Origin: Mycobacterium sp. ITM-2016-00316
GTDB lineage: Bacteria > Actinomycetota > Actinomycetes > Mycobacteriales > Mycobacteriaceae
Reading direction: 5' to 3'
Assembly (NCBI RefSeq): GCF_002968335.2
Contig: NZ_CP134398.1
Span: 1,054,001-1,118,000, forward strand
Length of the DNA: 64,000 bases
Under the pieces are notes generated by a model. The model did no database searches, was not told where the DNA came from, and worked only from the letters and a program-made list of their open reading frames with translations. Each line of letters starts with the position of its first letter. Within the stretch, counting starts at the first letter, position 1. The position numbers and the translations under genes were made by a program. Below, piece after piece: positions 27,172 to 46,708 of this stretch.

Positions 27172-28677
27172 CTATTCGGTGCCGGCGGCCGAGAGTTCAC
27201 CCGGAGTCGGCGTGACCGGTGCGGGCGCCACCAGCGGCAGGCACACGGCGAACCGGGTGTCCCCGGGCTTGCTCTGCACCGAGATGTTGCCGCCGTGCTT
27301 TTCCACCACGATCCGCCAGGCCAGGTCGAGGCCGAGGCCGGTGCCCTCACCGAAGGGCTTGGTGGTGAAGAACGGGGTGAAGATGCGTTCGATGACATCC
27401 TCGGGGATTCCCGGGCCGTCATCGCAGATCTCCACCCGGATCATCTGCTCGTTCTCCCGCGCGGTGCGGATGGTCAGCGTGCCGTGGCCCTGCATCGCCT
27501 GGATCGCGTTGTCGATGATGTTGGTCCACACCTGGTTGAGATCGCCTGGGTAGCACTGCAATTCGGGCAGTGTCTTGTCCAGGTCCTTGACGATGGACAC
27601 CGGCCTGCCCTTGCCGGGCCCGCCGATCTTGTCGCCGAACATCATGATGGTGCTGCGCAGCAGCTCGTGTACGTCGGCGCTGCCGTAGGCGCCGCGGTCC
27701 ATCTGCGAGTACTGCTTGGCGCCGGCCAGCAGCGCCGAGGTCCGCTTGCTGGCCTCGGCGATCTCGTTCATCCGCAGCTCGTTGTCGATGGTGTATTTCA
27801 GCCACCCGATGGCACCTTGCAGTGACGCGGTGGCGTCGACATCGTCGACGGAGGTGAGGACCTTTTCCAACCAGTCGGTGTCCAGGCCCGCCTCGACGAA
27901 TGTCGGCGCGTAATCCCAGGCGCCGATGATGTCGTGGTCCTCCAGCCAGTCGCCGATCGCGTCCTCGCGGTCCGAGGCCTCCAGCGCGGAGAGCTCGACG
28001 TCCCGGTTCTTGGCGACCTGCTCGGCCACGTCGTCCTGGATGCGGACCAGGACCCGCAGCGCTTCGGGGCTGAATTTTCCGTCCGCGAGCATCGACAGCT
28101 TGTGCCGCATCTTGCCGACCGTCTCGCGCAGATCCGAGACGGCGCGCGCCGTCGCGGCGGCCGGGTTGTTGAGCTGGTGGGTCAGGCCCGCCGTGATGGT
28201 GCCCAGCGCCAGCAACTTCTCGCGCTGCCCGATGATCTGGCTCTGGCGCCGGCCGCCGACCAGCTGGCCTTCCATCAGGTGCACCGCCATCGGGAACTGT
28301 TGGCGCATGAACTCGGCGAAGGTGTCGGCCTGCAGCACGAACACCCGTGATCTGGTGACCAGCCGCACCGAGGCCTGGTAGAGCTGCTCCTCGCCGGGGA
28401 TGTAGGCCGACCACGCACCGAAGTACACGCCGCGCTGGGAGGTGCGGTTGGTCTGGATGTCGACGCCGCCGGAGCGCTTCGACATGACCAGCTCACCGTC
28501 GATCAACACGTAGAAGCAGGTCGCCGATTCGCCCTCGACCACGAGCGGACCCGCCGGGAAATACTGGATGTGGCCGGCTTCGCAGAGGATGTCCAGCTGC
28601 TCATCGGAGAGATGCTCGAAGAGGAACAGTGTGCGCAACTCGTCGCGCACACACTCTTCACCGTTCTGTGCGCCCAT
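27172..28677 (-). CDS. Soluble sensor histidine kinase with N-terminal cNMP-binding domain
   Basis: 501 residues without membrane helices. Residues 15-130 form a cyclic-nucleotide-binding beta-roll (FPAGPLVVEGESATCFYVLIDGELVMSKR), though the usual phosphate-binding arginine motif is not clear (GVYFGAWSAY is seen in its place). Kinase core: phospho-acceptor His167 in LGTITAGLTHQLNNPAAA, then N-box NQVWTNIIDNAIQAM, G1 DDGPGIP and G2 GEGTGLGLDLAW. Lies just downstream of the receiver/flavoprotein gene, so the three parts probably form one signalling unit. Confidence 0.9.
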   Translation of the reverse strand: MGAQNGEECVRDELRTLFLFEHLSDEQLDILCEAGHIQYFPAGPLVVEGESATCFYVLIDGELVMSKRSGGVDIQTNRTSQRGVYFGAWSAYIPGEEQLYQASVRLVTRSRVFVLQADTFAEFMRQQFPMAVHLMEGQLVGGRRQSQIIGQREKLLALGTITAGLTHQLNNPAAATARAVSDLRETVGKMRHKLSMLADGKFSPEALRVLVRIQDDVAEQVAKNRDVELSALEASDREDAIGDWLEDHDIIGAWDYAPTFVEAGLDTDWLEKVLTSVDDVDATASLQGAIGWLKYTIDNELRMNEIAEASKRTSALLAGAKQYSQMDRGAYGSADVHELLRSTIMMFGDKIGGPGKGRPVSIVKDLDKTLPELQCYPGDLNQVWTNIIDNAIQAMQGHGTLTIRTARENEQMIRVEICDDGPGIPEDVIERIFTPFFTTKPFGEGTGLGLDLAWRIVVEKHGGNISVQSKPGDTRFAVCLPLVAPAPVTPTPGELSAAGTE

Positions 28678-28690
28678 TGTTCGCGTCCTC

Positions 28691-29953
28691 TCAGGCTTCC
28701 GCCAGATACCTGTGCACCAACATCACTGCCATCGAGCCCTCGCCGACCGCGGCGGCCACCCGCTTGGCGGACTCCGACCGCACGTCCCCGGCGACGAAGA
28801 CGCCGGGGACGCTCGTCTCCAGGTGATGCGGCGGCCGGTCCAGCGTCCAGCCGACCTTGTCGCGGAGATCCGGCCCCGACAATATGAAGCCGTTGTCGTC
28901 GCGGGCTATTCCCGCCTCCTCCAGCCATTCCGTGCGGGGGGTGGCCCCGATGAAACAACACATCCGGTTGCACGCCACGGGTTCGGTTTCGCCGGTCCGC
29001 TTGTCGAGGAGCACCAGCCCGGACAGGAAACCGTCGCCCGGGGTGATGTCGACGACCTCGGTGCACGTCCTGACCTTGATGTTGTCGGTCCGGTTGATGC
29101 GATCGACGAGGTACTGCGACATCCCGGCCTCCAGCGATGAGCCGCGGATCAGCATGGTGACCGACTTGGCCGTCTGCGACATGTACATCGCGGCCTGGCC
29201 CGCCGAGTTCGCGCCGCCGACGATGTAGACATCCTCGCCCGCACATTCGTTGTTGTCGGCCACGGACGCGCCGTAGTAGACACCCCGGCCGATGTAGTTG
29301 TCCCCGGGGGCGTCGGGATTCTCCCAGCATCCGGTGATCTCCAGCTGGCGGTAGTCGACGCCGGTGGCCAGGATCACCGCGCGGGCGCCGATGGTCTGGT
29401 CATCGTTGAGGTGGACGGTGTGGGCCGCACCGATACCCCCGGTCTTGAGCCGGCCGGCCTCCTGCGTCGTGATGACCTCGGCGCCGAAGCGCTCGGCCTG
29501 CCGCCGGGCGGTCGTCGTCAGCACGGCGCCCGCGACGCCGTTTTCGAAGCCGAGGTAGTTCTCGATCTTCGAGCTGCGGCCGGCCTGGCCACCGGTGGTG
29601 GCCTTCTCGATGAGGACGGTCTTGAGGCCTTCGGAAGCGCCGTATACCGCGGCGGCCAGGCCGGCGGGGCCGCCGCCGATCACCGCGAGGTCGTACATGT
29701 CCAGCTGCGGACTGGTGGACAACCCGAGCAGCGCGGCCAGTTCCGCGTCGCTGGGCGCGACCATCGTGTGGCCCTTCTCGGTGATGACCACCGGAAGGAC
29801 GCTGTCATCGAGGCCGGCGGCCTGGAGCAGTTGCTGGCCCTTGGGCTCGTCTGCGTTCACGCTTCGGAACGAGTACTCGTTGCGGGCCAGGAACTGGCGC
29901 ACCTCCCAGGACCGGTCGTTGTACCGGTGACCGATGACCTTGGTGTACGGCAT
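28691..29953 (-). CDS. Thioredoxin-reductase-like flavoprotein (3' part of a frameshifted receiver fusion)
   Basis: 420 residues if begun at MPYTKVIGHR. Residues 1-80 have a glutaredoxin/thioredoxin-like fold pattern without CxxC. From residue 88: FAD site VIGGGPAGLAAAVYG, GGQAGRSSKIENYLGF, NADPH site YIVGGANSAGQAA, and C-terminal GVFVAGDVR. In place of the redox CxxC of thioredoxin reductases there is GVYYGASVADNN, so disulphide reductase activity is unlikely. The frame continues upstream as EEWRSVGDRG, exactly what would follow the receiver ORF if one base were added near 29983. Homologues are single proteins of receiver plus flavoprotein. Confidence 0.85.
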   Translation of the reverse strand: MPYTKVIGHRYNDRSWEVRQFLARNEYSFRSVNADEPKGQQLLQAAGLDDSVLPVVITEKGHTMVAPSDAELAALLGLSTSPQLDMYDLAVIGGGPAGLAAAVYGASEGLKTVLIEKATTGGQAGRSSKIENYLGFENGVAGAVLTTTARRQAERFGAEVITTQEAGRLKTGGIGAAHTVHLNDDQTIGARAVILATGVDYRQLEITGCWENPDAPGDNYIGRGVYYGASVADNNECAGEDVYIVGGANSAGQAAMYMSQTAKSVTMLIRGSSLEAGMSQYLVDRINRTDNIKVRTCTEVVDITPGDGFLSGLVLLDKRTGETEPVACNRMCCFIGATPRTEWLEEAGIARDDNGFILSGPDLRDKVGWTLDRPPHHLETSVPGVFVAGDVRSESAKRVAAAVGEGSMAVMLVHRYLAEA

Positions 29954-30393
29954 CCCACGGTCTCCGACCGAGCGCCACTCCTCAGCAGTCCGTCGATGAC
30001 GGGATAGAGCTTCTCCTCCGGCGGGTCCCACGGCTTGAGCAGATAGTGGTCGAGGTCGACGACGTTGATCGCGTCGATCGCGGCGTGGGTGTCGGCGTAG
30101 GCCGTGAGCAACACCCGGCGGGCCATCGGAAAGAACTCCATCGCCTTCTCGAGGAATTCGATACCGCTCATCTGCGGCATCCGGTAGTCCGCGACGAACA
30201 CGGCGACGGTGTCGCCGCGCAACTTCAGCTCCTTGAGGGCCTCCAAGGCGTCGGCGCCGGATTCGGCACGGATGATGCGGTAGCGCTCGCCATAGTGGCG
30301 GCGCAGGTCGCGGGCCACCGCACGGGAGACGGCCGGGTCGTCATCGACCGTCAGGATTGCGGGTAAACGGGGTTGGTTCTCAGATCCGGGCAT
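29857..30393 (-). CDS. Receiver domain (5' part of a frameshifted receiver-flavoprotein fusion)
   Basis: A full CheY-like receiver: acidic residues in TVDDDP (16-19), phospho-acceptor Asp69 in VADYRMPQMSG, Thr97 and Lys120 (HYLLKPWDPPEEKLYPVIDGLL). After residue 137 the frame runs into unrelated sequence to a stop at 29857, while the expected continuation is found in the -1 shifted frame. One base appears missing near 29983. As read, the protein is a receiver with about 40 nonsense residues. First gene of the minus-strand signalling unit. Confidence 0.85.
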   Translation of the reverse strand: MPGSENQPRLPAILTVDDDPAVSRAVARDLRRHYGERYRIIRAESGADALEALKELKLRGDTVAVFVADYRMPQMSGIEFLEKAMEFFPMARRVLLTAYADTHAAIDAINVVDLDHYLLKPWDPPEEKLYPVIDGLLRSGARSETVGCRTPRSSVTGTTTGPGRCASSWPATSTRSEA

Positions 30394-30506
30394 TGCCTAT
30401 CAGTATGCGCCGCTGGTCTGACGAAATTCTGCCCGGATGTCCCGTTCGGGGGCGGCATCGCCGAGGGCGAACGCGGCATCCGTCCCGGGGTTTTTAGACT
30501 CCGAGA

Positions 30507-30977
30507 ATGACCGTCCTCGAATTCTCCGACTCCGTTGCCATCGCGCTCGCCCCGGCTGCGGTCTACGCGCTGGTCTCCGATGTCACCCGGATCGGGGAGT
30601 GGAGTCCGGTGTGCAAGGCCTGCTGGTGGGACGAACCCGGCGCCGGTGCCGTGGTGGGGGCGTGGTTCACCGGCCGTAATGTCCTTCCCGAAAGAACCTG
30701 GGAGACGCGCAGCCAGGTGGTCGTTGCCGAACCCGGACGCGAGTTCGCGTGGGAGGTGAACAACGGCTGGGTGCGCTGGGGTTTCAGCATCGAGCCGCGG
30801 GATGCCGGATCGCGACTCACCCAGTACTGGCGATTCCTGCCCAAGGGCCTTGACGGATTTCGCGAGCGGTTCGGTGACGACGCCGATGCGCAGATCGCTC
30901 AGCGCTCCGCGTTGGCGCTCAGCGGTATTCCCGCCACGCTCGCCGCGATCAAAGCCGCCGCCGAAGCGCAGCAGTAG
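30507..30977 (+). CDS. SRPBCC-family (polyketide cyclase/START-like) protein
   Basis: 156 residues. FSDSVAIALAPAAVYALVSDVTRIGEWSPVCKACWW is the standard start of the SRPBCC hydrophobic-ligand fold, ending in the long C-terminal helix. Ligand unknown. Divergent from the receiver gene; convergent with the universal stress gene (9-bp gap). Confidence 0.88.
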   Translation: MTVLEFSDSVAIALAPAAVYALVSDVTRIGEWSPVCKACWWDEPGAGAVVGAWFTGRNVLPERTWETRSQVVVAEPGREFAWEVNNGWVRWGFSIEPRDAGSRLTQYWRFLPKGLDGFRERFGDDADAQIAQRSALALSGIPATLAAIKAAAEAQQ

Positions 30978-30986
30978 ATCCCCCGA

Positions 30987-31868
30987 TCAGGACGAGCGCG
31001 CAACGATGACGGGAGTGTGGGCTGTCTGTGCGACCGCGGCCCCGACCGATCCGAGCAACATCCCGGCGAACCCGCCGCGGCCGTGGCTTCCGACGACCAC
31101 GAGTTGCGCCGACTCCGCGTGCACGAGCAGCTGGTGGGCGGGATGGTCACGGACCACCACCCGTCGGACCGCGACATCGGGATAGCGCTCTTGCCACCCG
31201 GCCAGCCGCTCGGCCAGTATCTCTTCGGCTTGCGGCTGTAGCGTCATCCACTCGTCGTTGGGGTACGCGTACACCGTCAGATCGCTCCACGCGTGCACCG
31301 CGATCAGTTCGACCCCGCGCAGCGAAGCTTCCTCGAAGGCCACCGCGACCGCCGTCTCCGAGGCGGGTGAGCCGTCGATACCCACCACGATGGGGGAACG
31401 CTCGGACTGCAGCTGCGCATCCGCCGTGGCGTGAATCACCGCGACCGGGCAATGAGCGTGCCGGAGCAGCCCGGTGCTGACCGAGCCGAGCAGAGCGCGA
31501 CCGACGCGGCCGAGCCCCCGACTGCCCACCACCACCAGCTGCGCGCCCTTGGACAGGTCGGACATCGTCGACACGGCATTGCCCTCGACGAGGTGTTCGG
31601 TGATCGGTAGCGGGCCTGAGGCGGCGGCAGCCTGCTCGGCGATCGCCGTCGCCCTGGACAGGATCTCTCGACTGTGCTGCGTGGCGATCCGTTCCAGCTG
31701 GTCCGCGATGGAAATCTCGTACCAGGTGCGTAGTCGATCGTCGGGCAGGACGTGTGCCAGGGTGAGCCCGACCTTGTGCAGGGCAGCCTCCCGCGCGGCC
31801 CAATCGACAGCTGATTCGCTCTCCTTCGAACCGTCGACTCCCACCACGATCCCTCGGTGTGACGTCAT
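30987..31868 (-). CDS. Universal stress protein, two UspA domains
   Basis: 293 residues in two tandem UspA folds (about 1-145 and 155-293). Both have the ATP-binding pattern G-2x-G-9x-[22 protein letters not shown] and [19 protein letters not shown]. Closest in layout to the DosR-controlled Mtb tandem USPs (Rv1996/Rv2005c/Rv2623 type). A weak DosR-like box lies about 115 bp upstream. Confidence 0.92.
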
Positions 31869-31979
31869 CTCAAACTCCTCGAATCGGCGATCCGGCGTGC
31901 CACGGACCGCAATGGTGCGGGCCCGAATCGAACGTAGAGCGCGTCGCGGCCCGCCGGACGGAGGCTTTGGTCACCGCCT

Positions 31980-32660
31980 TCAGGGAACAATGGCCCCTCC
32001 CGGCGCAGGGATATGCGTGAGCGACCCGGTGCCCGAGCTTGCTCGCCGCGCGATACCGCGCAGCATCTTCTGTTCCATCACGAAATGCGGGATGTCAAAC
32101 CAGAAGTGGCCGGCCGCGCCGCCGTTGCCGCGTGCCAGCAATCGGGTAGCGCCGATTTCCTGCCGGAGGACGAACGCCCACGACCCCGAGGCCTTTTGGC
32201 CGCGTTGAACACGCTCGAAGTCGGCAGCGGACATCAGCACCAGATGCGAGTGAGGCTGCACCGCGGCCACCATCTGGCGGGCCGCCGGACCATAACGGCG
32301 GGCCAGCCAGATCGTGTCACCGACGTGCACGTGTTGCCATTCGGGGTGGATGGCATCGGCGTTGTGAATGTCGGCGCCGACCGCGCGCTCCAGCAGTGAG
32401 TAGCTGTAGAACCCGCCCCGTCCCTCACCGATCTGGGCCAACCACGGCCAGATGTCGGCGCTGGAAGCGTGCACGCTCACCGCGCGGGTGGTTCGCGGGC
32501 CGGGCACGTGGACCAGTTCGTCTCCCGGCAGCGTGGCTCGAACCTCGTCGGCGCGCGCTCCCCAGGTGTAGAGCCACGGCCGCAGGTGTGCGACATACAC
32601 CGCGGTGAGGCCCGCCACGGCCGAGAGCGCTGCCAGCGCGGGGTGCTGCTTTCCCACCAT
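31980..32660 (-). CDS. Conserved membrane-anchored SRPBCC-like protein
   Basis: 226 residues from an ATG preceded by GGAGG. One N-terminal hydrophobic helix (ALSAVAGLTAVYVAHL) followed by a soluble domain with VSVHASSADIWPWLAQIGEGRGGFYSYSLLE, a START-like pattern common in uncharacterised mycobacterial proteins. A strong DosR-like box lies about 95-110 bp upstream. The in-frame extension to 32816 would cover that box and is rejected. Function unknown. Confidence 0.82.
   Translation of the reverse strand: MVGKQHPALAALSAVAGLTAVYVAHLRPWLYTWGARADEVRATLPGDELVHVPGPRTTRAVSVHASSADIWPWLAQIGEGRGGFYSYSLLERAVGADIHNADAIHPEWQHVHVGDTIWLARRYGPAARQMVAAVQPHSHLVLMSAADFERVQRGQKASGSWAFVLRQEIGATRLLARGNGGAAGHFWFDIPHFVMEQKMLRGIARRASSGTGSLTHIPAPGGAIVP
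31983..31996. promoter_or_regulatory. Weak DosR-like box upstream of the first universal stress gene
   Basis: GGGAA-CAAT-GGCCC: nine of ten arm positions resemble GGGAC-N4-GtCCC. It overlaps the last codons of the upstream gene, about 115 bp from the USP start. Position is compatible but the match is weaker than the others. Confidence 0.3.
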
Positions 32661-32755
32661 GACCTCCGTTCGGCGGTTGCTGTGGTGCGAGGCGGGAGCC
32701 GCCGACTCCCTGAGAGTTACCAGGCATCTGAGCACCTGTCCGCCGTCGCCGGCTA

Positions 32756-32769
32756 GGGACCGAAGTCCC
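32756..32769. promoter_or_regulatory. Strong DosR-like box
   Basis: GGGAC-CGAA-GTCCC: both arms are perfect for the Mtb DosR consensus core GGGAC-TWWA-GTCCC. It lies between the SRPBCC-like gene (minus) and the RafH-like gene (plus) and could serve either. Confidence 0.6.
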
Positions 32770-32837
32770 TTCCATCGGGGTCGTTCGTCCGGGGAAGGCC
32801 AGCGGCCGTCCACCACCGGGTGGGCGGCGGGAAGCCG

Positions 32838-32851
32838 ATGACTTTGGGCCC
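32838..32851. promoter_or_regulatory. DosR-like box before the RafH-like gene
   Basis: ATGAC-TTTG-GGCCC, two differences from GGGACTTTGGGCCC-type sites. About 37 bp upstream of the RafH-like start and about 70 bp from the strong box, forming a pair as is usual for strongly hypoxia-induced genes. Confidence 0.45.
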
Positions 32852-32887
32852 TTACCGACCGAACCCCGCGGGGGTACCAAGGGAGAC

Positions 32888-33674
32888 ATGCCCAACGGAG
32901 TGGATGCGGTACCAGCCTTCGACCTCGATATCACGATTCACGGAGTCTTCCCGGGCGCCGTGGAGTACGGGCGAATCAAGATCGGCGGTCTGGGGCGATT
33001 CACCCGTCACCCGATCACCCACGCGCGCCTGCGACTGACGCGGGGCCGTCGCGATGTCGATGCGTATGCGGTGATCGCTCAGGCCAACATGCAAGTGCGG
33101 GGACGTGCTGTTCGCGCCCAGGTTGAAGCCGCCACCGCCCATGAAGCGATCGACAAGCTGGAGGCGCTGATGCGGCGGCGTCTTCGAGCACGTGTGTGAA
33201 CTGTGGGAACCGCACCGCGGACCAGATGCGGCGCCCCCCTGGCGTCACGCCGCGGAGTCCGGCGCGCGGCGCCCGCCGATATCCGGTGAGGCCCGGATCA
33301 GCAGGCACAAAAGTTACGCCATGGCCCCGTGCACCGTCGATGAAGCCGTCGTCGAAATGGAGATGTTGGGCTATGACTTCCACCTCTTCAACGAGATCGG
33401 CAGTGCTGCAGCGGCTGTCGTGTATCGCAGCGCACCGACGGGGCTGCGCCTCGCCCTGGTGGCCCCCGACCTCGTCGACCAGGTGGCGCCCTTCCAGCTG
33501 CCGGTCAGCATCAGCGGCCATCCGGTGCCTTGTCTGCGTGAGGAGGCAGCGGTGGAGCGCATGGACCTGATGGATCTGCCCTTCCTGTTCTACATCGACG
33601 CGGCAGCGGGGCGTGCCGGCGTGCTCTACCGGCGCCTGGACGGCGACCTCGCGATGATCACGCCCGCCGGGTAG
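32888..33674 (+). pseudogene. RafH/Rv0079-like ribosome hibernation factor, split by a 2-nt frameshift
   Basis: Two abutting frames together encode about 262 residues, the length of Mtb/M. smegmatis RafH. The first (32888-33199, 103 codons) is the S30AE ribosome-binding domain (ITHARLRLTRG, AYAVIAQANMQVRGRAVRAQVEAATAHEAIDKLEALMRRRL). The second (from about 33192) is the HPF C-terminal domain with CTVDEAVVEMEMLGYDFHLFNE and LPFLFYIDAAAGRAGVLYRRLDGDLAMITP, close to Rv0079. The break lies in a GTGTGTG run at 33192-33198; adding GT restores one frame. RafH binds ribosomes in dormant cells and is DosR-controlled. It may be genuine decay or a sequencing error. Confidence 0.82.
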
Positions 33675-33684
33675 GTCGGGCCGC

Positions 33685-34566
33685 TCAGGCGCGGACCACC
33701 GCCACGGGCGCCGACGCGGATTCGGCAACGGCGGTGCTGACCGAACCCAGCAACATTCCGGAAATCCCGCCCCGGCCCCGGCTTCCGACCACCACCAGCT
33801 GAGCATGCCTGGACTCGTCGATCAGCCAGCGAGCCGGCTTGTCGCACACGATGCGTCGGTAGACCGTGACGTCCGGATACTGCTCCTGCCACCCGGCCAG
33901 CCGTTCTCCGAGAATCTCGTGGCCCTGGTCTTCGAACGTGTGCCAATCCATACCCAGAAACGGAAACAGCGCGTCGTCGCTCCAGGCATGCAACGCGACA
34001 AGGTCGACTCCGCGGCGCGACGCTTCGGCGAAGGCGAACCCGATCGCCGCCTCCGACGACGGCGAACCATCGACTCCGAGCAACACCGGCAGATCACGGT
34101 CGGTGTTTCTGACCACGCCGTCTTTGGTCACGACCAGCGGACACCGAGCGTGGTGCAGCAGGCCGCGACTCACCGAGCCCAGTACGGCTCCACCGACCGG
34201 GCCTAGTCCGCGACTGCCGATCACGATCAGATCGGCGCTGCCCGAGGCTTCGGTGAGCTCCGTCATCACACCGTCGTGCCGACGTTCGACCAGGACCTCC
34301 GGTGCGGGCGAACCGTCCACGGCAGCACACAGAGTCTCCTTCGCGAGCTTGATGACGTTGTCGGCGTTGTCTTCCTGCCACCCTTGATAGTCCGACAGCA
34401 CAGCCTCTATCGACCAGCTGACAATGATCGGCGAAACGACGTGCATCAGGGTGACGGGGCGGCGACGCAGAGCCGCGGCACGGGCCGCCCAGCGCACCGC
34501 TGCCAGTGATTCCGGGGAGCCGTCGATGCCGACGAGTATCCCGAATCGAGTTGATGATTGCGACAT
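33685..34566 (-). CDS. Universal stress protein, two UspA domains
   Basis: 293 residues from an ATG with an AGGAG site about 9 nt upstream. Both domains keep the ATP-binding loop (VIGSRGLGPVGGAVLGSVS; VVGSRGRGGISGMLLGSVS). Convergent with the RafH-like gene (10 bp apart) and divergent from the pyridoxamine-oxidase-like gene, with a DosR-like box about 80-93 bp upstream. Confidence 0.92.
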   Translation of the reverse strand: MSQSSTRFGILVGIDGSPESLAAVRWAARAAALRRRPVTLMHVVSPIIVSWSIEAVLSDYQGWQEDNADNVIKLAKETLCAAVDGSPAPEVLVERRHDGVMTELTEASGSADLIVIGSRGLGPVGGAVLGSVSRGLLHHARCPLVVTKDGVVRNTDRDLPVLLGVDGSPSSEAAIGFAFAEASRRGVDLVALHAWSDDALFPFLGMDWHTFEDQGHEILGERLAGWQEQYPDVTVYRRIVCDKPARWLIDESRHAQLVVVGSRGRGGISGMLLGSVSTAVAESASAPVAVVRA

Positions 34567-34645
34567 TCGGTACTCCTGTGAACGGGTTGATCTGACGTTA
34601 GGGCAGCGTCGGTGCCCGCTCAGGAGTCCTTGGTGTGTCGAACAA

Positions 34646-34659
34646 GGGACTTTGTACCT
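34646..34659. promoter_or_regulatory. DosR-like box between USP and PNPOx-like genes
   Basis: GGGAC-TTTG-TACCT. The left arm is perfect; the right arm has two differences. It is 37-50 bp upstream of the PNPOx-like ATG and could also serve the divergent USP gene. Confidence 0.45.
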
Positions 34660-34695
34660 CAGACGGGGAAGGTGCGAGCTGCCTACAGTCGACAC

Positions 34696-35145
34696 ATGAC
34701 CGATGATGACCACTCGATGACGATCCTGTCCGTGACCGAGTGCTGGAATCTGCTGGCGGGCGCAGCGCTTGGCCGGTTGGTGACCACCGTCGACGGCAAC
34801 CCGGCGATCTTCCCGGTGAACTACGCCGTGCAGGATCGGACGATCGTGTTCCGTACGGCACCGGGCACCAAGCTGGTCAGTGCGGCGATCAACAACAATG
34901 TCCTGTTCGAAGCGGATGGGCACGGTCTGAGCGAGGGCTGGAGCGTCATCGTGGCGGGAGTTGCGCGCTCGATACGCAGCGACGAGGACATCGCCGAGGC
35001 CGAACGGGCCGGGGTGGTTCCCTGGACAGGTTCGGAGAAGCCGCATTTCGTCCGGATCCGGCCGCGAAACGTCACGGGCAGACGATTTCGGTTCAGTGTC
35101 ACCTCAGTCTCGGCTCTGCCCGTCGAAGATCCAGTGCTGGGATGA
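34696..35145 (+). CDS. Pyridoxamine 5'-phosphate oxidase-like flavin-binding protein
   Basis: 149 residues of the split-barrel FMN/F420 fold: ECWNLLAGAALGRLVTTVDGNPAIFPVNYAV, FRTAPGTKL, GWSVIVAGVARSI, KPHFVRIRPRNVTGRRF. This small form matches the Mtb DosR-regulon proteins Rv0080/Rv3129, not true PdxH. Cofactor and substrate unknown. Followed after about 58 bp by pfkB. Confidence 0.88.
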   Translation: MTDDDHSMTILSVTECWNLLAGAALGRLVTTVDGNPAIFPVNYAVQDRTIVFRTAPGTKLVSAAINNNVLFEADGHGLSEGWSVIVAGVARSIRSDEDIAEAERAGVVPWTGSEKPHFVRIRPRNVTGRRFRFSVTSVSALPVEDPVLG

Positions 35146-35203
35146 CGAAACGCGTTGCGCGGAAACGCAGCACTGGCACCGCGCACCGCGGGTTTGGCGG
35201 ACC

Positions 35204-37036: not shown

Positions 37037-37225
37037 GTTGGCCGCCTCCCAGATTGATGGGATATGCGACTCATGGTAAGGAGTCGGACACATGGGCCGG
37101 CGGAGCCGAAAGTCACCACCATGGCGGCAAAGGTCCATCTCGTGTACCTCGGTCCAGGTGGGGCGGCCGTCATCGCGAACAGCGATCTGCATCAGCGTCT
37201 TTCGGCCCGCGTGTCGACTGCCGAA

Positions 37226-37239
37226 GGGTCTTTGTGCCC
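37226..37239. promoter_or_regulatory. DosR-like box upstream of the Rv2004c-like operon
   Basis: GGGTC-TTTG-TGCCC, within a 275-bp divergent intergenic region and 73-86 bp upstream of the Rv2004c-like gene. Arms differ from GGGAC/GTCCC at three positions. The remaining intergenic bases hold no gene that I can support. Confidence 0.4.
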
Positions 37240-37311
37240 TGAAGAGCGAGGACCATTGCTACCCGGCCGGGGACGCTCGGCCGTGTCCGGCACCTTCGGC
37301 GGGAAACGACG

Positions 37312-38808
37312 ATGGTGAGTATGAGTGCAGCGCACGAGCGACTCGCGGAGACCTTCGAGTCGGTCGGTGCCGCCGAGATCCGGGAAACCCACACCGGTCT
37401 GGTCGTACTCGCCGGTGATCGCGCATACAAGGTGAAGAAGCCGGTGGTCACCGACTTCCTGGACTTCAGCGCTCCCGAAGACCGAGAACGTGTCTGCCTG
37501 CGCGAGGTGAGCCTGAATCGGCGCCTGGCACCCGCGAGTTATCTCGGCGTGGCCCACCTGGTCGGATCGTCCGACGACCCTGGCGAACCGGTCATCGTGA
37601 TGCGCCGCCACCCGGACTCACGCTGCCTGGCGACGTTGGTCACCGATGGCCGATCTGTCGAGACCGAGCTGGACCAGATCGCCACCCTGTTGGCCCGTTT
37701 CCATCGGACCGCCGAACGCAATCACCTCATCGACACCTGTGCGACGGTCGACGCGGTCACCGCCCGCTGGCGGGAGAACCTGGCCGAACTGCGCAGCTAC
37801 GCCCCCGATATCCTCCCCGTCGAGCGGGTCGTCGAACTGGAACGGCTGTTCACCGCATTCGTCTCCAGCAGACGGGCTCTGTTCGGGCGACGCATCGAGG
37901 AGCGCCGGATCGTCGACGGCCATGGTGACCTGTTGGCCGCCGACATCTACTGCCTGTCGGAGGGCCCCGCGCTGCTGGACTGCCTGGAGTTCGACGATCA
38001 CCTGCGCTATGTCGACGGTGTCGATGACGCCGCGTTCCTCGCGATGGACCTGGAGTTCCTGGGCCGCAAGGACCTCGGCGCGTACTTCCTGGATCAGTAC
38101 GTGCGACGGGCCGACGATCAGGCCCCACCGGCGCTGGTCCACTTCTACATCTCCTACCGCGCGGTGGTCCGCGCCAAAGTCGACTGCATCCGGGTGCTGC
38201 AGGGGCGCGCCGAAGCTCGCGACGATGCCCGCAGGCACCTCTGCATCGCACTCGAACATCTCAGGACGGCAGCGGTTCAGCTGATCATCATCGGAGGCGG
38301 CCCCGGCACGGGGAAATCGACGTTGTCCCGATCACTGGCCGCCGACATCGGGGCACAGGTGATCTCGACCGATGACACTCGGCGCGAGTTGCAGCAGGGC
38401 GGTCGAATCAGTGGGTCCGCCGGTACGTTACGAGCAGGCCTGTACACCCCGGAGAACGTAGATCTCGTCTATGACGAGGTCTGCCGTCGAGCGCAACGGC
38501 TACTGGCCGGTGGCCAGACGGTCATCCTGGACGGGACCTGGCGCGACCCGCGGCACCGCCGTTCGGCACATGCGATCGCCGGTGAGCTTTCGGTGCCGGT
38601 CGTCGAGTTCGTGTGCAGGACAAGCCTCGACGACGCCGAGGCGCGTATCGCGACCCGGGTCGACACGTCCTCCGATGCGACGGTGGAGATGGCCGCCCCG
38701 CTCACGCCCGACCTCGACGACTGGGTGAGTGCCCATCGTGTGGACACCGGTCGCCCGCTGCATGAGAGCACCGCCGAAGCCCGGCAAATCTGTTGCACCG
38801 GAATTTGA
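37312..38808 (+). CDS. Rv2004c-like protein: phosphotransferase-like domain plus P-loop kinase
   Basis: 498 residues, the same length as Mtb Rv2004c, a DosR-regulon gene. The N-terminal part (1-310) resembles aminoglycoside-phosphotransferase-like folds (VKKPVVTDFLDFS, RRIVDGHGDLLAADIY, LLDCLEFDDHLRYVD). The C-terminal part has Walker A GGGPGTGKSTLSRSLA and VISTDDTRREL, a zeta-toxin/kinase-like ATPase. Substrate unknown. First gene of an apparent four-gene operon with the alcohol dehydrogenase, PEP synthase and a USP. Confidence 0.9.
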   Translation: MVSMSAAHERLAETFESVGAAEIRETHTGLVVLAGDRAYKVKKPVVTDFLDFSAPEDRERVCLREVSLNRRLAPASYLGVAHLVGSSDDPGEPVIVMRRHPDSRCLATLVTDGRSVETELDQIATLLARFHRTAERNHLIDTCATVDAVTARWRENLAELRSYAPDILPVERVVELERLFTAFVSSRRALFGRRIEERRIVDGHGDLLAADIYCLSEGPALLDCLEFDDHLRYVDGVDDAAFLAMDLEFLGRKDLGAYFLDQYVRRADDQAPPALVHFYISYRAVVRAKVDCIRVLQGRAEARDDARRHLCIALEHLRTAAVQLIIIGGGPGTGKSTLSRSLAADIGAQVISTDDTRRELQQGGRISGSAGTLRAGLYTPENVDLVYDEVCRRAQRLLAGGQTVILDGTWRDPRHRRSAHAIAGELSVPVVEFVCRTSLDDAEARIATRVDTSSDATVEMAAPLTPDLDDWVSAHRVDTGRPLHESTAEARQICCTGI

Positions 38809-38852
38809 TCGACACGGCCGGCATATCAAACTCCAGAAAGAAGGGACCTGTT

Positions 38853-39899
38853 GTGAAAGCTCTCGTCTACCAAGGACCCGGACAACGATCGTGGCAGGAG
38901 GTGCCCGACCCGCAGCTCCAGCACCCCGGTGACGCCATCATCCGGGTCGACGCGGTCACGATCTGCGGTACCGATCTGCACATCCTGAAAGGTGATGTGC
39001 CCGAGGTAACCCCGGGTCGCGTCCTCGGTCACGAGGCCGTCGGCACCGTGACCGCAGTCGGCGCGGCGGTCGAGACCCTCGATATCGGGGACCGCGTGCT
39101 GGTGTCCTGTATCAGCTCATGCGGAAGATGCCGCTACTGCCGGAAGGCGCAGTACGGGCAGTGCCTGGGGGGCGGCGGGTGGATTCTCGGGCACCTCATC
39201 GACGGGACGCAGGCGGAGTACGTGCGGGTTCCGTTCGCCGACAACTCGACACACAAGGTGCCCGACGGGGTCAGCGATGAACAGATGGTCATGCTGGCCG
39301 ACATCCTGCCCACCTCCTACGAGGTGGGCGTGCTCAACGGTGCGGTCCAGCCGGGTGATGTGGTGGCCATCGTCGGTGCCGGACCGATCGGCCTGGCAGC
39401 GATACTCACCGCCCGGCTGTACAGCCCGAGAACCATCGTGGCCATCGACGTGGCCGACTCCCGTCTGGAGGCCGCGCGTAAGTTCGGCGCCGATGTGGTG
39501 GTCAATCCGGACACGGAGTCGGTGCGGGCGGTGATCGACGGGTTGACCGGCGGCCTCGGTGCCGACTGCGTGATGGAGGCCGTGGGCACACCGGGCACCT
39601 TCGAGGACGCCGTTCGGCTGGTCCGCGCCGGGGGCCACGTCGCCAATATCGGGGTGCACGGGGCGCCGGCGACACTGCACCTGGAAGACATCTGGATCAA
39701 GAATCTCACCATCACCACCGGGCTGGTCGATACCTATTCCACGCCGACACTGGTAGATCTGGTGGCCGGCAACCGGCTGGACACCGCGGCGATGATCACG
39801 CACCGCTTCACCTTCGACGATTTCGAGGCCGCTTACGACGTCTTCAGCCGGCCGGCCGAAACGGGAGCACTGAAGGTCTTGCTGACGGTGCCGAAATGA
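38853..39899 (+). CDS. Zinc-dependent alcohol dehydrogenase (MDR family)
   Basis: 348 residues from a GTG preceded by AGAAGGGA. Catalytic zinc ligands Cys38 (ICGTDLH) and His60-Glu61 (LGHEAVG); structural zinc cysteines in CISSCGRCRYCRKAQYGQC; NAD site VAIVGAGPIGLAAIL. Sequence is like the threonine/sorbitol dehydrogenase side of the family. Stop overlaps the PEP synthase start by 4 nt. Confidence 0.93.
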   Translation: MKALVYQGPGQRSWQEVPDPQLQHPGDAIIRVDAVTICGTDLHILKGDVPEVTPGRVLGHEAVGTVTAVGAAVETLDIGDRVLVSCISSCGRCRYCRKAQYGQCLGGGGWILGHLIDGTQAEYVRVPFADNSTHKVPDGVSDEQMVMLADILPTSYEVGVLNGAVQPGDVVAIVGAGPIGLAAILTARLYSPRTIVAIDVADSRLEAARKFGADVVVNPDTESVRAVIDGLTGGLGADCVMEAVGTPGTFEDAVRLVRAGGHVANIGVHGAPATLHLEDIWIKNLTITTGLVDTYSTPTLVDLVAGNRLDTAAMITHRFTFDDFEAAYDVFSRPAETGALKVLLTVPK

Positions 39900-42226
39900 C
39901 CAGTATCGCCACGCCGGTGCTGCGCAGCCTTGCCGATATCCGGGTGGCCGACGCCGACAGCGTGGGGGGTAAGGGCGCGAATCTGGGCGAGCTCATCGCG
40001 GCCGGCTTACCGGTCCCGCCCGGCTTCGCCCTGTCTTGCGGCGCCTACCGCGCCTCGATGCGGTCCGGCGGCGTCGACTCGGACCTCGCGGCGCTGCATC
40101 GCGAAGCGCTCGCACACGTCGAGGACACTGCGCGTCTCGACGAACTCTGCACACGCATGCGCCACCTGGTGCGGTCTTCGGGGATGACCGACGATCTGCG
40201 GGCCGAAGTACTCGCGGCCTACCGTGAGCTCGGCGCGGATCCGGTGGTGGCCGTGCGGTCTTCCGCCGCGGGAGAAGACGGCAGCGATGCGTCGTTCGCG
40301 GGCATGAACCGCACCATCACCAACATCACCGGTGAATCGGAACTCCTGGGAGCCGTGGTGGCCTGTTGGGCGTCGCTGTTCACGCCGCGGGTTCTCACCT
40401 ATCGGGCCAGCCGCGGGTTCACCGGCGACCCGGCGATGGCCGTGGTGGTTCAGCGGATGGTCCCCGCGGACCGCGCGGGCGTCGCGTTCACCGCCGATCC
40501 CAGCACCGGAGACCGCAGCCACATCGTGGTCGAAGCCGCGTACGGACAGGGGGAGGTGGTGGTGTCGGGCAAGGTCCAACCGGATACCTATGTCATCGAC
40601 AAGGCTTCCGGGCGAGTGATCGACGTCAACATCGGGACCAAACCGTTCAAGATCGTGCGCGGCGCCGACGGTCGCGACGCGATCGTCGAACTGGCTGCCG
40701 CGCAAGCCACCGCGCGGGTGCTCTCCGACACCGACCTCGCCGGTCTCACCGAACTGGCACTGGCCGTCGAGCGTCACTATGCAGAACCCCAGGACATCGA
40801 ATGGGCCATCGAGGGCGGTACCTCATGGCTGGTGCAGGCCAGGCCGATCACCACTCTCGGCGTCGAGGTGGCACCGGATTCCGGCTCCGATCGGGCCGGC
40901 ACCGGGCTGCTGCTGCGTGGATTGGCCGCTGCACCGGGCATAGCGACCGGCCGCGTGCGGGTGCTGCAGAATCCGCGCGAGGGACATCAGTTGCGCGACG
41001 GCGAGATCCTGGTGGCACCGATGACGAACCCGGACTGGCTGCCGACAATCCGAAGAGCGGGTGCACTGGTCACCGAGAGCGGCGGCATGACGTGCCACGC
41101 CGCGATCGTCGCACGTGAACTCGCGGTCCCCTGCGTGGTGGGTGCCCGCTCGGCCACCACCGTCCTGCGGCCCGGCTCCATGGTCACCGTGGACGGCACG
41201 CGAGGCCAGATCTACACCGCGGCGGCGACACCGGCACCGGTCCCGGTGCGCGAGATTCGCTCCGGCATCATCGAGCGGCCCGCCGCGCCGGTCACTGCGA
41301 CCCGGATCTACGTGAACATGGCGCTACCGGATCAGGTCGAGGCCGTTGCGGCCACCGATGTCGACGGTGTGGGGCTGCTGCGCGCCGAACTCATGCTCAC
41401 CGATGCGCTCGGTGGGCAGCATCCACAGGCATTGATCGGGCGCGGTGAACAGCGCACCATCATCGCGGCGATGGTCACCGCCATCACCCGCATTGCCGCG
41501 GCGTTCCACCCACGGCCGGTCATCTACCGGGCCACCGACTTCCGCAGCAACGAGTTTCGCGATCTCGTCGGCGGACCCGACTACGAACCGGTCGAACACA
41601 ATCCGATGATCGGGTATCGGGGGTGCTACCGCTACATCAAGGACCCCGCCCTGTTCGCACTGGAACTGGCGGCACTCGCCGAGGTGCGCGACCAGTACCC
41701 GAATGTCCATCTGATGATCCCGTTCGTGCGAACCCGGTGGGAACTCGAAGAGTGCCTGGGACTCGTGGACGCCAGCCGGCTCGGTGGGCAACGTGGGCTG
41801 CACCGGTGGGTCATGGCCGAGGTGCCGTCGGTGGTGCACTGGTTGCCGGCGTATATCGCCATGGGTATCGACGGTGTGTCGATCGGCAGCAACGACCTCA
41901 CCCAGCTGATGCTCGGGGTGGACCGCGACTCGGAGATCTGCGCGGAGGTCTTCGATGAGTCCGACGCCGCCGTCCTGGACGCCATCGGGAGCATCATCGC
42001 CACGGCCCGCAGACACGGTGTGCCGTCCTCGCTGTGTGGGCAAGCGCCCTCGGCGAACCCGGCATTTGCCGAACAGCTTGTCCGAATGGGCATTTCATCC
42101 ATCTCGGTGAACCCCGATGCCGCCGTCGCCACCCGCCGGGTGGTGGCCGCCGCCGAACAACGGCTCCTCCTGGAGTCCGTCAACCGCCCGTCGAGAACCA
42201 CGGAAGGACCGTCACACCATGAATGA
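39896..42226 (+). CDS. ppsA: Phosphoenolpyruvate synthase
   Basis: 776 residues (E. coli PpsA 792). N-terminal ATP-grasp domain (GGKGANLGELIAAGLPVPPGFAL, VRSSAAGEDGSDASFAGMN), central phospho-His401 in GGMTCHAAIVARELAVPCVVG, C-terminal PEP domain with RSNEFRDLVGG, GSNDLTQLMLGVDRDS and catalytic Cys714 in LCGQAPS. Makes PEP from pyruvate and ATP, useful for gluconeogenesis during non-growth. Its 3' end overlaps the USP start by 8 nt. Confidence 0.94.
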   Translation: MTSIATPVLRSLADIRVADADSVGGKGANLGELIAAGLPVPPGFALSCGAYRASMRSGGVDSDLAALHREALAHVEDTARLDELCTRMRHLVRSSGMTDDLRAEVLAAYRELGADPVVAVRSSAAGEDGSDASFAGMNRTITNITGESELLGAVVACWASLFTPRVLTYRASRGFTGDPAMAVVVQRMVPADRAGVAFTADPSTGDRSHIVVEAAYGQGEVVVSGKVQPDTYVIDKASGRVIDVNIGTKPFKIVRGADGRDAIVELAAAQATARVLSDTDLAGLTELALAVERHYAEPQDIEWAIEGGTSWLVQARPITTLGVEVAPDSGSDRAGTGLLLRGLAAAPGIATGRVRVLQNPREGHQLRDGEILVAPMTNPDWLPTIRRAGALVTESGGMTCHAAIVARELAVPCVVGARSATTVLRPGSMVTVDGTRGQIYTAAATPAPVPVREIRSGIIERPAAPVTATRIYVNMALPDQVEAVAATDVDGVGLLRAELMLTDALGGQHPQALIGRGEQRTIIAAMVTAITRIAAAFHPRPVIYRATDFRSNEFRDLVGGPDYEPVEHNPMIGYRGCYRYIKDPALFALELAALAEVRDQYPNVHLMIPFVRTRWELEECLGLVDASRLGGQRGLHRWVMAEVPSVVHWLPAYIAMGIDGVSIGSNDLTQLMLGVDRDSEICAEVFDESDAAVLDAIGSIIATARRHGVPSSLCGQAPSANPAFAEQLVRMGISSISVNPDAAVATRRVVAAAEQRLLLESVNRPSRTTEGPSHHE

Positions 42227-43106
42227 GCACGCAGCGCCGATCATTGTCGGCGTGGACGGCACGATCGTCGCGCACCACGCCGCCCGCTGGGCGGGTGCGC
42301 TCGCTCATCACCTGGGAACCCCACTACAGATCGTGCATGCGATGTCCCACGGCCGGCATCAATTCAGTGATGCGATGGCCGCTGTCGCCGCGGCCAGTGT
42401 CAGCGCCCAACATGAGGCCGCGCCGATGATTCTCAAGACCGCGGAAGAGGCGGTCCGGCGTGACCACCCGGACCTCGAGATCAGCACCGTCGCCCTCGAT
42501 GAGCCCGTCGAGGATGCGTTGCAGGCCCTCAGCCGGAACGCCCGGCTGCTGGTACTGGGCTGCGACGACGTATCACCCGGTGCGGCACTGCTGGTCGGAT
42601 CGCTCACACTTGACCTGTGCAGCCATGCGGATTGCCCGGTGATCGCCTGGCGTGGGGAAATCCTCAGACCGACAACACAACCCATCGTGGTCGGAGTGGA
42701 TGGCTCCAGCGACGCCGCGCTGGAACTGGCCTTCGAACTGGCTGCCGCGCTCGGGGCTCCGGTGCAGGCGGTCCACGCATGGTCGATGCGGGTGCCCGCC
42801 GGTGACGTCTCGATTCCCTTCCTGATCGACTGGGGAGCTGTCGAATTGGAGCAGGTGAATGCCTTGAATCGGGCCGTCGAGCCCTACCGCCGGGCGCACC
42901 CGGAGGTCAGCGTCGATGTCCTCGTCGATGCTCTCGGCCCCCGCCGTGCACTGCTGCAACAGTTGTCCGACGCGCAGATGGTGATCGTCGGCAGCCGCGG
43001 GCGTTCGCCGCTGGCGGCGACGGTCCTGGGGTCGACGAGTCTGAACATGCTGCATCACTCGCCGGTGCCCGTGGCGGTGTGTCGCTCGACGCACAGCACG
43101 GGGTGA
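42219..43106 (+). CDS. Universal stress protein, two UspA domains
   Basis: 295 residues from MNEHAAPIIVGVDGT. The first ATP loop is degenerate (VLGCDDVSPGAALLVGS), the second is canonical (VIVGSRGRSPLAATVLGSTS). Last gene of the Rv2004c-adh-ppsA-usp run, start inside the ppsA end. Convergent with the next USP. Confidence 0.9.
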   Translation: MNEHAAPIIVGVDGTIVAHHAARWAGALAHHLGTPLQIVHAMSHGRHQFSDAMAAVAAASVSAQHEAAPMILKTAEEAVRRDHPDLEISTVALDEPVEDALQALSRNARLLVLGCDDVSPGAALLVGSLTLDLCSHADCPVIAWRGEILRPTTQPIVVGVDGSSDAALELAFELAAALGAPVQAVHAWSMRVPAGDVSIPFLIDWGAVELEQVNALNRAVEPYRRAHPEVSVDVLVDALGPRRALLQQLSDAQMVIVGSRGRSPLAATVLGSTSLNMLHHSPVPVAVCRSTHSTG

Positions 43107-43125
43107 GCGAGCCGGCCGTCGGCCG

Positions 43126-43998
43126 CTACTGTCGCGCGACGATCACCGGCACCGTTGCCGCCTGAACCACCGCGTTGCTCACCGACCCCAGCAGCGCGCT
43201 GCCCACTGCGCCGTGCCCGTGACTTCCCACGACGATCAACTGACACGAGCTCGAATGCTCGACGATCCGTGCGGCGGGCTGGTCGGCGACCACGACGCGT
43301 TCCACGGGTACGTCGGGGAAGCGCTGCTGCCAGGCCGTGAGCATTTCCCGGATCTGCCGGTTCACCTCTGGACGCAGTGTCTCCCAATCGAATCCGGGCA
43401 TTTCGAAAGCGCCGGGAGACCACCATGCATGCATGGCGACCAGTCCCACCCGGCGTCGGGACGCCTCGTCGAAAGCCAGCGCGATCGCCGACTGCGAGGA
43501 GGGCGACCCGTCGAACCCGAGTAGCACCGGCGCGTCGGCCATGGGTGGGGGTTCCTCCCCTGGGATCACGACGACCGGGCAATGCGCGCGATGCAGTAGG
43601 CCCGCGCTGACGCTGCCCAACACCAGCCGTGAAAGAGCGCCCTTGCCTCGCGATCCCACGACGACCATGCCGGCCGTACGGGAGGCATCCACCAGCGCCG
43701 CGGTCGGAGTGGCCACGATCAGGTCGGTCGACACCGAGACGGCGCCGCCGGTGGTCTGCTCCGCCAGGCGAGCGGTGTCATCGAGAAGTTCTCGCCCGAC
43801 CTTCATCTGCCATTCCAGGTACCCCACCGGTACCGGTGCGACGGGCCAGGCCCCGATGGGTAACGAGCTCGCGTGGAGCAGGACCAAGGGAACACCGCGG
43901 AGCTCGGCCTCCCTGGCCGCCCATTCGACGGCGGCTCGCGACGATGGCGAATCAGCCACTCCGGCAACGATCTTCTCGACTTCGACCGGCTCAATCAT
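43126..43998 (-). CDS. Universal stress protein, two UspA domains
   Basis: 290 residues with two intact ATP loops ([38 protein letters not shown]). The ATG overlaps the stop of the acyltransferase gene upstream by 4 nt, so it is coupled to it. Fifth USP of the island. Confidence 0.92.
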
Positions 43999-45449
43999 CG
44001 TGTTCCTTCCAGTGCTGATCGGTTTTCGCCTGATCCGTCGGTCGTGCTGGATTCGAGCAGCGCCAACGCGGGCCGGCCCGGGCGCGGGTGCCGGGCAACG
44101 GCGGTGAGGTGGGCGATGGCCCGGCCGATGCCGCCGGCGAGGTCCTCGACATCGGGAAACGCATCGAAATCGGTGGTGATTCCGAAGAACAGGTCCTCGC
44201 CGTAGCTCAGGATGGCCACCGCGGCACGAAGCCGCAGCGCCACCGGTGGAACAGGAAGCATGCGAACAACTTCGCGCCCCAACACCTGAAGATGGCGCTG
44301 CGGTCCGGGCACGTTGGTCGCCAGCGTGACGACGCCGCGTTGCGGCAGAGCGGTCAGCATTCGGATGGCCCGCGACGCGAAGGCGAACGGCACCAGGTTC
44401 AACGCGGACACCGCGGAGCTGCCGGCCTGGCGTTGACCTCCGGATTTGGCTCGCGCCATCCGCCGGTGCACGGTGTGCAGCTGTTCCACCAGGTCGGGTT
44501 CGTCAACCGGTAGGTAGGGCAACATGACCGAAACCCGGTTGTCGACCTGGTCCATGGCATCGCTCGATCGCACCGAGACGGGTACCAGAGTGCGCAGCGC
44601 CCGGTGATGGGGCACCTCGCCGCGACGCTTCAGCGCGGATCGGAAACTGTCGGTGATGGCGGACAGGGCGACATCGTTGAGGGTGACGTCAAACGCCTGG
44701 CTGACCGATGCCACATCGACCAGGGGTACTTGGACGGCGCTGTAACGCCGCATCGTCGTCACGGGTCCGTTCAGCGTGGATCTGGGTCCGGCGCGCAGCA
44801 GACTGTCGATGATCTGCACCGTGCCGCCGACGGTCAGTGCGGCTGCTGCGGTCACCGCCGACGCAGTGTCCCAAGCGCTGCGTGCCCACCGGAGCGGATT
44901 GAGCGTGAACGCCGGCAGTGCGGGCGCCACGGGGGTGTCCGCGTGGGCAGCGCGGATGGCGCTGACGAACGTCTCGCCTTCACCGCCGTCGCTCAGCCCG
45001 GCGAGCATGTGCATGGTCGCGATGCCGTCGCCGATGCAGTGATGCACCTTCATCAACAACGCCCAGCGGCCGTCGGCGAGGCCCTCGATGATCCAGCACT
45101 GCCAGAGCGGTCGTTCCCGGTCGAGACGGGGCTCCATCGCCTCCGCGGTGAACCGGAACAGGGCTGCGTCGTCACCCGGGTGTGGCAGCGCGGCGCGGCG
45201 GATATGGTGCGCCATATCGGGTGCCGGGTCGTCCACCCACTCCGGCGCCAGCAGGTCGAGCGGTTGCCTGTGTAGGACTTGCCGCAGCCGAGGAATCGCG
45301 GAGATCCGGTCACTGATGGCAGCCACCAGCTGGTCGTGGTCGGGAATCGGTCCGTTCAGCACGGATACCGCCCCGACCGCCAGGCTGACGTGGGGATCGG
45401 CGTCCTCGGCGTCCAGGAAACCGGCATCGAGGGTGTTGAGGCGGGCCAC
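43995..45449 (-). CDS. Wax ester synthase/diacylglycerol acyltransferase (Tgs-like)
   Basis: 484 residues from a GTG. Starts [28 protein letters not shown] as in the WS/DGAT family, with catalytic HHxxxDG at 136-142 (HHCIGDG) and the C-terminal [13 protein letters not shown] segment. Makes triacylglycerol or wax ester storage lipid at the membrane. The Mtb homologue Tgs1 (Rv3130c) is DosR-induced and builds dormancy lipid. A DosR-like box lies 59-72 bp upstream. Confidence 0.93.
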
Positions 45450-45491
45450 CCCTACGACTATCGGCGCGCGGGCGGGCCAGGGTCAGAGTCA

Positions 45492-45521
45492 CAGGTCCCT
45501 GCTCAGCGGGACCTGCGGCCC
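45492..45521. promoter_or_regulatory. DosR-like box and inverted repeat upstream of the acyltransferase gene
   Basis: GGGAC-CTGC-GGCCC at 45508-45521 fits the DosR core except one position. It overlaps a perfect 8-bp inverted repeat CAGGTCCC...GGGACCTG (45492-45499 and 45508-45515, 8-nt spacer). The 298-bp region between the acyltransferase gene and infA otherwise holds only a candidate infA promoter. Confidence 0.45.
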
Positions 45522-45561
45522 TTCCTGTCCGCCGGCTCGGCCCGGCCCAGGTCACGCGATT

Positions 45562-45969: not shown

Positions 45970-46051
45970 CACGCCCCTCAACTGCAACAACCACTACCTG
46001 TGGTGGGCACTCCGGTGTCTGCCGCAACCGACCTAGAAGGATCGCGAAGCC

Positions 46052-46702: not shown

Positions 46703-46708
46703 CCCCGG

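Follow-up and report, generated by a model that had tools for sequence, protein, structure and literature searches.

Gene content of the island

We analysed a 64-kb window of the genome of Mycobacterium sp. ITM-2016-00316 (positions 1054001-1118000 of NZ_CP134398.1, a single-contig genome of 5.99 Mb), where a packed group of genes at 30987-45525 (positions are those of the window unless the genome is named) is, judging from its sequence, very probably an island that answers hypoxia or nitric oxide (NO) under the control of the regulator DosR. A preliminary description of this DNA had recognized gene families of the DosR-regulon type here, and Pfam, NCBIfam, PDB and fold searches bore them out. 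It had also listed five tandem-domain universal stress proteins (USPs). Pfam indeed finds five USP genes; four carry two Usp stretches, and the remaining one, USP3, only one.

The left part of the island begins on the reverse strand with USP1 (30987-31868, two Usp stretches) and a gene for a protein of SRPBCC fold with an N-terminal helix (31980-32660), hereafter the second SRPBCC protein. Pfam and NCBIfam searches gave no match for the latter, and its assignment comes from an AlphaFold model (mean pLDDT confidence score 82.4), for which Foldseek returned SRPBCC-type structures such as PYL1 (E about 5e-5, TM-score about 0.4-0.5). One further SRPBCC-family protein (the first SRPBCC protein) is supported by Pfam. 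The rafH region, for a ribosome hibernation factor, follows on the forward strand (32888-33674) in two frames: the N-terminal one (32888-33199) matches M. smegmatis RafH (PDB 8whx), and the next (33192-33674) has the S30AE C-terminal domain, S30AE_C. The genome has another S30AE_C gene, at 1403756, so rafH is not its sole hibernation-type factor. Next come USP2 (33685-34566, reverse strand, two Usp domains by Pfam), a PNPOx-like flavin protein (34696-35145, forward strand, Pyridox_ox_2), a pfkB-type hexose kinase (35155-36159, forward strand, over the cut-off of TIGR03168 and matched from profile position 38) and USP3 (36149-37036, reverse strand).

The right part contains two compact gene groups. 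On the forward strand, a kinase gene of Pfam family AAA_33 (37312-38808), which we take to be Rv2004c-like and which has a match in 88 of 118 genomes of the genus at E<=1e-30, stands first in its unit. A zinc alcohol dehydrogenase (ADH) gene starts 44 bp past it (38853-39899); the phosphoenolpyruvate (PEP) synthase gene (39896-42226) overlaps the ADH gene by 4 bp, and USP4 (42219-43106) overlaps the PEP synthase gene by 8 bp (all three by Pfam). On the reverse strand, a Tgs-like wax ester/triacylglycerol synthase (WS/DGAT acyltransferase; 43995-45449; TIGR02946, 386 bits against a cut-off of 310) is followed by USP5 (43126-43998, Pfam), the two genes overlapping by 4 bp. This geometry, as far as sequence can tell, suggests two operons, kinase-ADH-PEP synthase-USP4 and acyltransferase-USP5. 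PEP synthase lies downstream of the kinase on the same strand in 25 of 63 loci and ADH in 8 of 63, while USP5 lies downstream of Tgs in all five loci that have both.

Predicted DosR boxes

We scored candidate DosR boxes with a 20-bp matrix built from sites of other mycobacteria, comprising 90 distinct sites with near relatives excluded, or 85 after four more relatives were dropped. Training sites were taken only from upstream of homologues of the kinase, Tgs, USP1-3 and rafH. The scan covered 464 kb of the genome (874001-1338000), divided into 18,429 island positions and 445,552 positions elsewhere. With the 90-site matrix the top five sites of the 464 kb all fell inside the island. With the 85-site matrix a score of at least 16 was reached at 5 of the 18,429 island positions and at 1 of the 445,552 others, that is, five of six such sites fall in 4% of the scanned DNA; at a score of at least 12 there were 6 sites in the island and 8 elsewhere. 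The sole outside site scoring at least 16 (window 46743) is inside a reading frame, 46709-47125, and was taken as chance; the frame is presumably a ribosomal protein gene.

The two best places are in the region between the second SRPBCC gene and rafH: a predicted box at 32836-32855 (forward strand) before rafH ranked first in the 464 kb, and one at 32752-32771 (reverse strand) upstream of the SRPBCC gene ranked second and has 0 mismatches to the published mycobacterial DosR consensus, GGGACTTNNGNCCCT, as given in the cited part of PMC6448022. Both are identical in Mycolicibacterium frederiksbergense LB 501T, the nearest named relative in our collection (its kinase protein is 92% identical). 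The predicted box before the kinase-ADH-PEP synthase-USP4 unit (37224-37243, forward strand) ranked third and is retained, with some changes, in alignments with five relatives; that before USP3 (37099-37118, reverse strand) ranked fourth. The acyltransferase promoter has a proximal predicted box at 45482-45501 (reverse strand, rank 5) and a second at 45506-45525 (forward strand, rank 9), both identical in M. frederiksbergense and similar in strain P9-22. A weak DosR-like box lies between the USP2 and PNPOx genes (34644-34663, forward strand, rank 26), its left half retained in two relatives, and a site at 31981 ranked 53rd.

We judged the best score of each promoter against 1000 dinucleotide shuffles of that promoter. 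For the promoters 32662-32887, 37037-37311 and 45450-45748 the observed best score was reached in 0 of 1000 shuffles each, and for 34567-34695 and 31869-31989 in 21 of 1000 each. DosR-type palindromes are good in three promoter regions, serving five units, and weak in a fourth, serving two. Six boxes had been named in the preliminary description; those at 32756, 32838, 37226 and 45508 proved good, whereas the one at 34646 is weak though correctly spaced, the one at 31983 is unconvincing, and the good sites at 37099 and 45482 had been overlooked.

Boxes before homologous genes and their spacing

We asked how often promoters of homologous genes in other mycobacteria carry the published consensus with at most two mismatches, taking the expectation from dinucleotide shuffling. 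From 63 kinase loci five were dropped before counting (near relatives L086-L088 and duplicates L098 and L104), although near-duplicate species may remain among the 58 counted, of which 42 have a box (1.8 expected). Boxes were also found before 12 of 18 acyltransferase homologues (0.4 expected), 24 of 44 for USP3 (1.0), 17 of 36 for USP1 (1.1) and 4 of 15 for USP2 (0.2). The smaller samples gave 5 of 9 for the second SRPBCC protein (0.2 expected), 3 of 5 for rafH (0.4), 2 of 5 for PNPOx (0.1), 4 of 28 for PEP synthase (1.0) and 1 of 4 for USP5 (0.1); the single homologue promoter of the first SRPBCC protein had no box (0/1).

The distance from box to gene also shows a preference. From palindrome centre to start codon (a centre that differs by one base from that of the 20-mer, depending on orientation) we measured 43.5 bp for rafH, PNPOx and the acyltransferase alike, and 65.5 bp for the second acyltransferase box, 73.5 bp for USP3 and 79.5 bp for the kinase; the USP3 distance of 73.5 bp recurs among USP3 homologues. 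Across 107 boxed promoters of other species, 20 in-frame starts lie at 41.5-43.5 bp, with neighbouring distances sparse, in a count to which one promoter may contribute several in-frame starts. A further hump spans about 58-80 bp (16 starts at 64.5-66.5 bp and 15 at 70.5-72.5 bp) and is so broad that we claim no second preferred spacing. The 43.5-bp spacing would fit a site lying over the -35 region of leaderless transcripts. With the cross-species matrix and the preferred distance of about 42-44 bp to the start codon, weak boxes in other places can be assessed more easily.

Several results weigh against control of the island by DosR. With at most two mismatches allowed, the loose pattern GGGAC-N4-GTCCC shows no enrichment in the window (50 occurrences against 84.7 expected), and neither does the published consensus at up to three (53 against 64, the sites at 45485 and 46746 among them). 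Over the whole genome the consensus occurs less often than its reversed control does (143+148 against 299+308). It was this lack of enrichment of simple patterns that led to use of the matrix, which, being trained upstream of the same gene families, is not a wholly independent test. Within the island, the box at 34646 is weak and that at 31983 doubtful. Homologue promoters of ADH (0/12) and USP4 (0/13) have no box, so for both genes we infer control from position only. Finally, in other genomes promoters of the receiver-flavoprotein fusion gene found left of the island (28691-30393; see below) have a site with at most two mismatches in 2 of 29 cases (0.5 expected), which sets the background level of the homologue test; counts of 0/4 for HK (the neighbouring histidine kinase) and 0/3 for TrxC are not promoter tests, their starts being inside or right after the fusion gene.

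One could argue from such numbers that the boxes are a chance cluster in GC-rich DNA and the genes a mere stress cluster, since at the stringency of the preliminary description the counts are below the shuffle expectation. That explanation is largely contradicted already by the enrichment of matrix sites, their intergenic position, their spacing and the boxes before homologues elsewhere, and we regard it as highly improbable.

DosR and DosS in the genome

The preliminary description had reasoned that DosR must act in trans, and this was confirmed: two dosR genes and one dosS gene sit 0.5 to 0.9 Mb from the island. Searching the genome for GerE yielded 28 matches, among which one regulator matches M. 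tuberculosis DevR (PDB 3c3w) with 370 bits. A second dosR copy (genome 1641164-1641799) is 78% identical to the first; the other copy, at genome position 1996429, has a strong matrix site about 0.5 kb before it. The one DosS-type kinase (genome 1647189-1648895) matches the DevS GAF and ATPase structures. The stretch from 1641164 to 1648895 (locus L207), which holds the second dosR, dosS, a sulfate permease gene, a nitroreductase-type gene and several strong DosR sites, probably represents the genome's main dos locus. In 18 further genome stretches scanned with the matrix, mostly picked for consensus matches, strong sites also stand close before a ferredoxin gene (presumably fdxA-like) and two nitroreductase-type genes, and before a sulfate permease gene.

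The boxes could be real and yet belong mainly to another regulator of the NarL/LuxR type, in which case the island would answer a different signal. The genome does offer candidates, as 15 places match DosR at E<=1e-10, a count in which DosR itself figures. The second-best match, though, is itself the DosR-like copy, and the next is merely 44% identical; moreover, the same matrix marks sites near dosR, ferredoxin and nitroreductase genes, the set expected of DosR. We therefore consider another regulator improbable.

The island and its genome show what is expected of a mycobacterial DosR regulon: palindromes in the promoters, dosR with a DosS-type kinase, and gene families of known targets (our target list comes from papers and general background). 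Under DosR control, the haem kinase DosS, encoded elsewhere, would sense low oxygen or NO and phosphorylate one or both DosR copies. DosR, whose binding and inducing action we infer from the boxes, would then occupy palindromes in four promoter regions and activate about seven transcription units: SRPBCC-USP1; rafH; USP2; PNPOx-pfkB; USP3; kinase-ADH-PEP synthase-USP4; and acyltransferase-USP5. ADH, PEP synthase and USP4 are probably controlled via the kinase promoter, because the genes overlap or nearly touch and the homologues of ADH and USP4 lack a box of their own. Going by the roles of their families, RafH would idle ribosomes, the Tgs-like enzyme would store triacylglycerol, PEP synthase, PfkB and ADH would redirect carbon, and the USPs would bind nucleotides.

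Relation to known systems

The closest published counterpart is the MSMEG_3926-3955 cluster of M. smegmatis (PMC2799521, in the part cited), whose expression rises at 2.5% oxygen saturation and behaves similarly at 0.6%; it includes a PEP synthase and is accompanied by a DevR copy. Its five USPs and the acyltransferase MSMEG_3948 are described in the relevant section of PMC11303327, and RafH is identified as MSMEG_3935 in that of PMC13393426. Our island shares with this cluster the grouped USPs, RafH, PEP synthase (MSMEG_3934) and acyltransferase (cited parts of PMC2799521 and PMC11303327), which places it in the same class. It differs in two components that those sections place inside the M. 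smegmatis cluster, a DevR copy and a NiFe hydrogenase (Hyd3); neither is among the 20 open reading frames scanned at 27172-47143. The island is thus a relative of the published hypoxia cluster, well supported and ordinary in kind, and its gene content adds little beyond what is in print. Of the new regulon members suggested in the preliminary description, the SRPBCC protein at 31980-32660 holds up as a target (boxes before 5 of 9 homologues), whereas PEP synthase is already part of the M. smegmatis cluster and zinc ADH is already among the predicted targets of OsdR in Streptomyces (cited parts of PMC2799521, PMC11303327 and PMC5069765).

That Streptomyces coelicolor OsdR island likewise has USPs, zinc ADH and pyruvate phosphate dikinase among the predicted targets of a DevR-like regulator, and a related palindrome; in contrast to ours, its consensus is AGGGCCGATCGGCCCT and osdRK adjoins the island (PMC5069765, in the part cited). 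Comparative reconstruction of such regulons is also in print (Gerasimova 2011, as quoted in the cited parts of PMC11876180 and PMC10034137).

The DosR (DevR) regulon of M. tuberculosis has homologous gene families and the same type of box, and relatives of its dosR and dosS are in our genome; here, unlike there, the genes form one packed island that includes ADH and PEP synthase. The matching of island genes to individual Rv genes is our assumption. The island indicates that an environmental relative of M. frederiksbergense has retained, together with the promoter boxes, a low-oxygen programme known above all from the tuberculosis bacillus.

Histidine kinase and receiver-flavoprotein pair

The preliminary description had started the island at 27172, which is too early. 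The genes at 27172-30393, both on the reverse strand, encode a histidine kinase with a cyclic-nucleotide-binding domain (27172-28677, Pfam) and a receiver domain fused to a thioredoxin-reductase-like flavoprotein (28691-30393, Pfam, in two frames, 28691-30031 and 29857-30393). No convincing DosR site was found with matrix and shuffles in the region before this pair, 30394-30506, where the best score, 6.9, was reached in 52 of 1000 shuffles; membership of the two genes in the DosR regulon is not supported. They are a separate conserved unit by the sequence evidence. In an order-level sample the fusion was matched in 115 of 200 genomes at E<=1e-60, and since 9 of the best listed matches begin after residue 150 (no receiver) and 2 have no listed location, 104 remain with the receiver part. 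Of the 30 best loci, counting that of the window itself, 29 have the histidine kinase next to the fusion gene.

An alignment of 150 fusion sequences (that of M. frederiksbergense, the 120 best database proteins and 29 loci) shows the phospho-acceptor Asp in every one and a CxxC at the place where thioredoxin reductase has it in none (0/150). In databases such proteins are labelled 'fused response regulator/thioredoxin-disulfide reductase'. The absence of the redox-active CxxC of the NADPH domain argues against thioredoxin reductase activity; the window fragment of the fusion scored 204.8 with TIGR01292 (cut-off 343.45). The same fusion of a receiver and a thioredoxin-reductase-like flavoprotein appears among the 'Mycobacterium-like' REC-thioredoxin reductase response regulators mentioned in the cited part of PMC5847659, and the literature searched, as far as its accessible parts go, yielded no functional study of this architecture.

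It is conceivable, if rather unlikely, that the pair is a second, DosR-independent redox arm. The cyclic-nucleotide-binding kinase would phosphorylate the receiver of a CxxC-less NAD(P)H flavoprotein. The output of this two-component system would be enzyme activity, neither transcription nor thioredoxin reduction, and its nearness to dormancy genes here would couple cAMP to redox state in oxygen limitation. Being widespread (about half of the order's genomes sampled), the pair poses a more open question than the island.

Broken reading frames

In M. frederiksbergense a single uninterrupted frame encodes the receiver-flavoprotein, and another encodes RafH; here both genes are split. The PfkB open frame is without the N-terminal part of the TIGR03168 profile, which seems to lie in another frame. 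The approximate break points are 29984 (receiver-flavoprotein), 33165-33183 (rafH) and, for pfkB, by deduction, 35330.

These breaks could mean that the island is decaying, with the rafH, pfkB and receiver-flavoprotein frames lost and the programme partly dead in this strain. A strict filter finds 7 isolated one-base breaks in 380 kb, and three in 18 kb would exceed this expectation; the comparison is uneven, as the filter catches the receiver-flavoprotein break and misses those of rafH and pfkB. A looser filter yields far more candidates; many of these indels are offset by another close by or lie in frames with weak support. On the other hand, in the stretch 874001-1338000 of the genome one-base indels relative to M. 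frederiksbergense are overrepresented at a single palindromic hexamer, with 5 among its 94 sites against 1129 of 380,062 hexamer positions overall, resembling systematic read error. The hexamer was selected post hoc, and slightly higher rates occur at a few others, with 1-2 events in 17-33 sites; an excess of this sort is what read error at modified bases would give. The M. frederiksbergense assembly itself has 4 such breaks by the same filter, and both boxes before rafH are unchanged. We suspect that sequencing error is a likelier cause of the three broken frames than decay, which we hold to be unlikely.

Genomic setting

Outside a repeat stretch, the genome and that of M. frederiksbergense are 92-99% identical in collinear blocks (380,202 bases aligned). 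The island itself is a mosaic in make-up: pfkB-USP3 and PEP synthase (35245-37185 and 39914-42195) have no match at the counterpart site of M. frederiksbergense, while their flanks are collinear. Rfam and tRNA scans of the 64-kb window gave no matches. The island stops just before a run of genes that, reading from the sequence, we take to be infA-rpmJ-rpsM-rpsK-rpsD-rpoA. The repeat stretch, at about 875000-887000 of the genome (L166), is strongly self-similar, with many overlapping alignments to M. frederiksbergense, and is probably a long repetitive gene.

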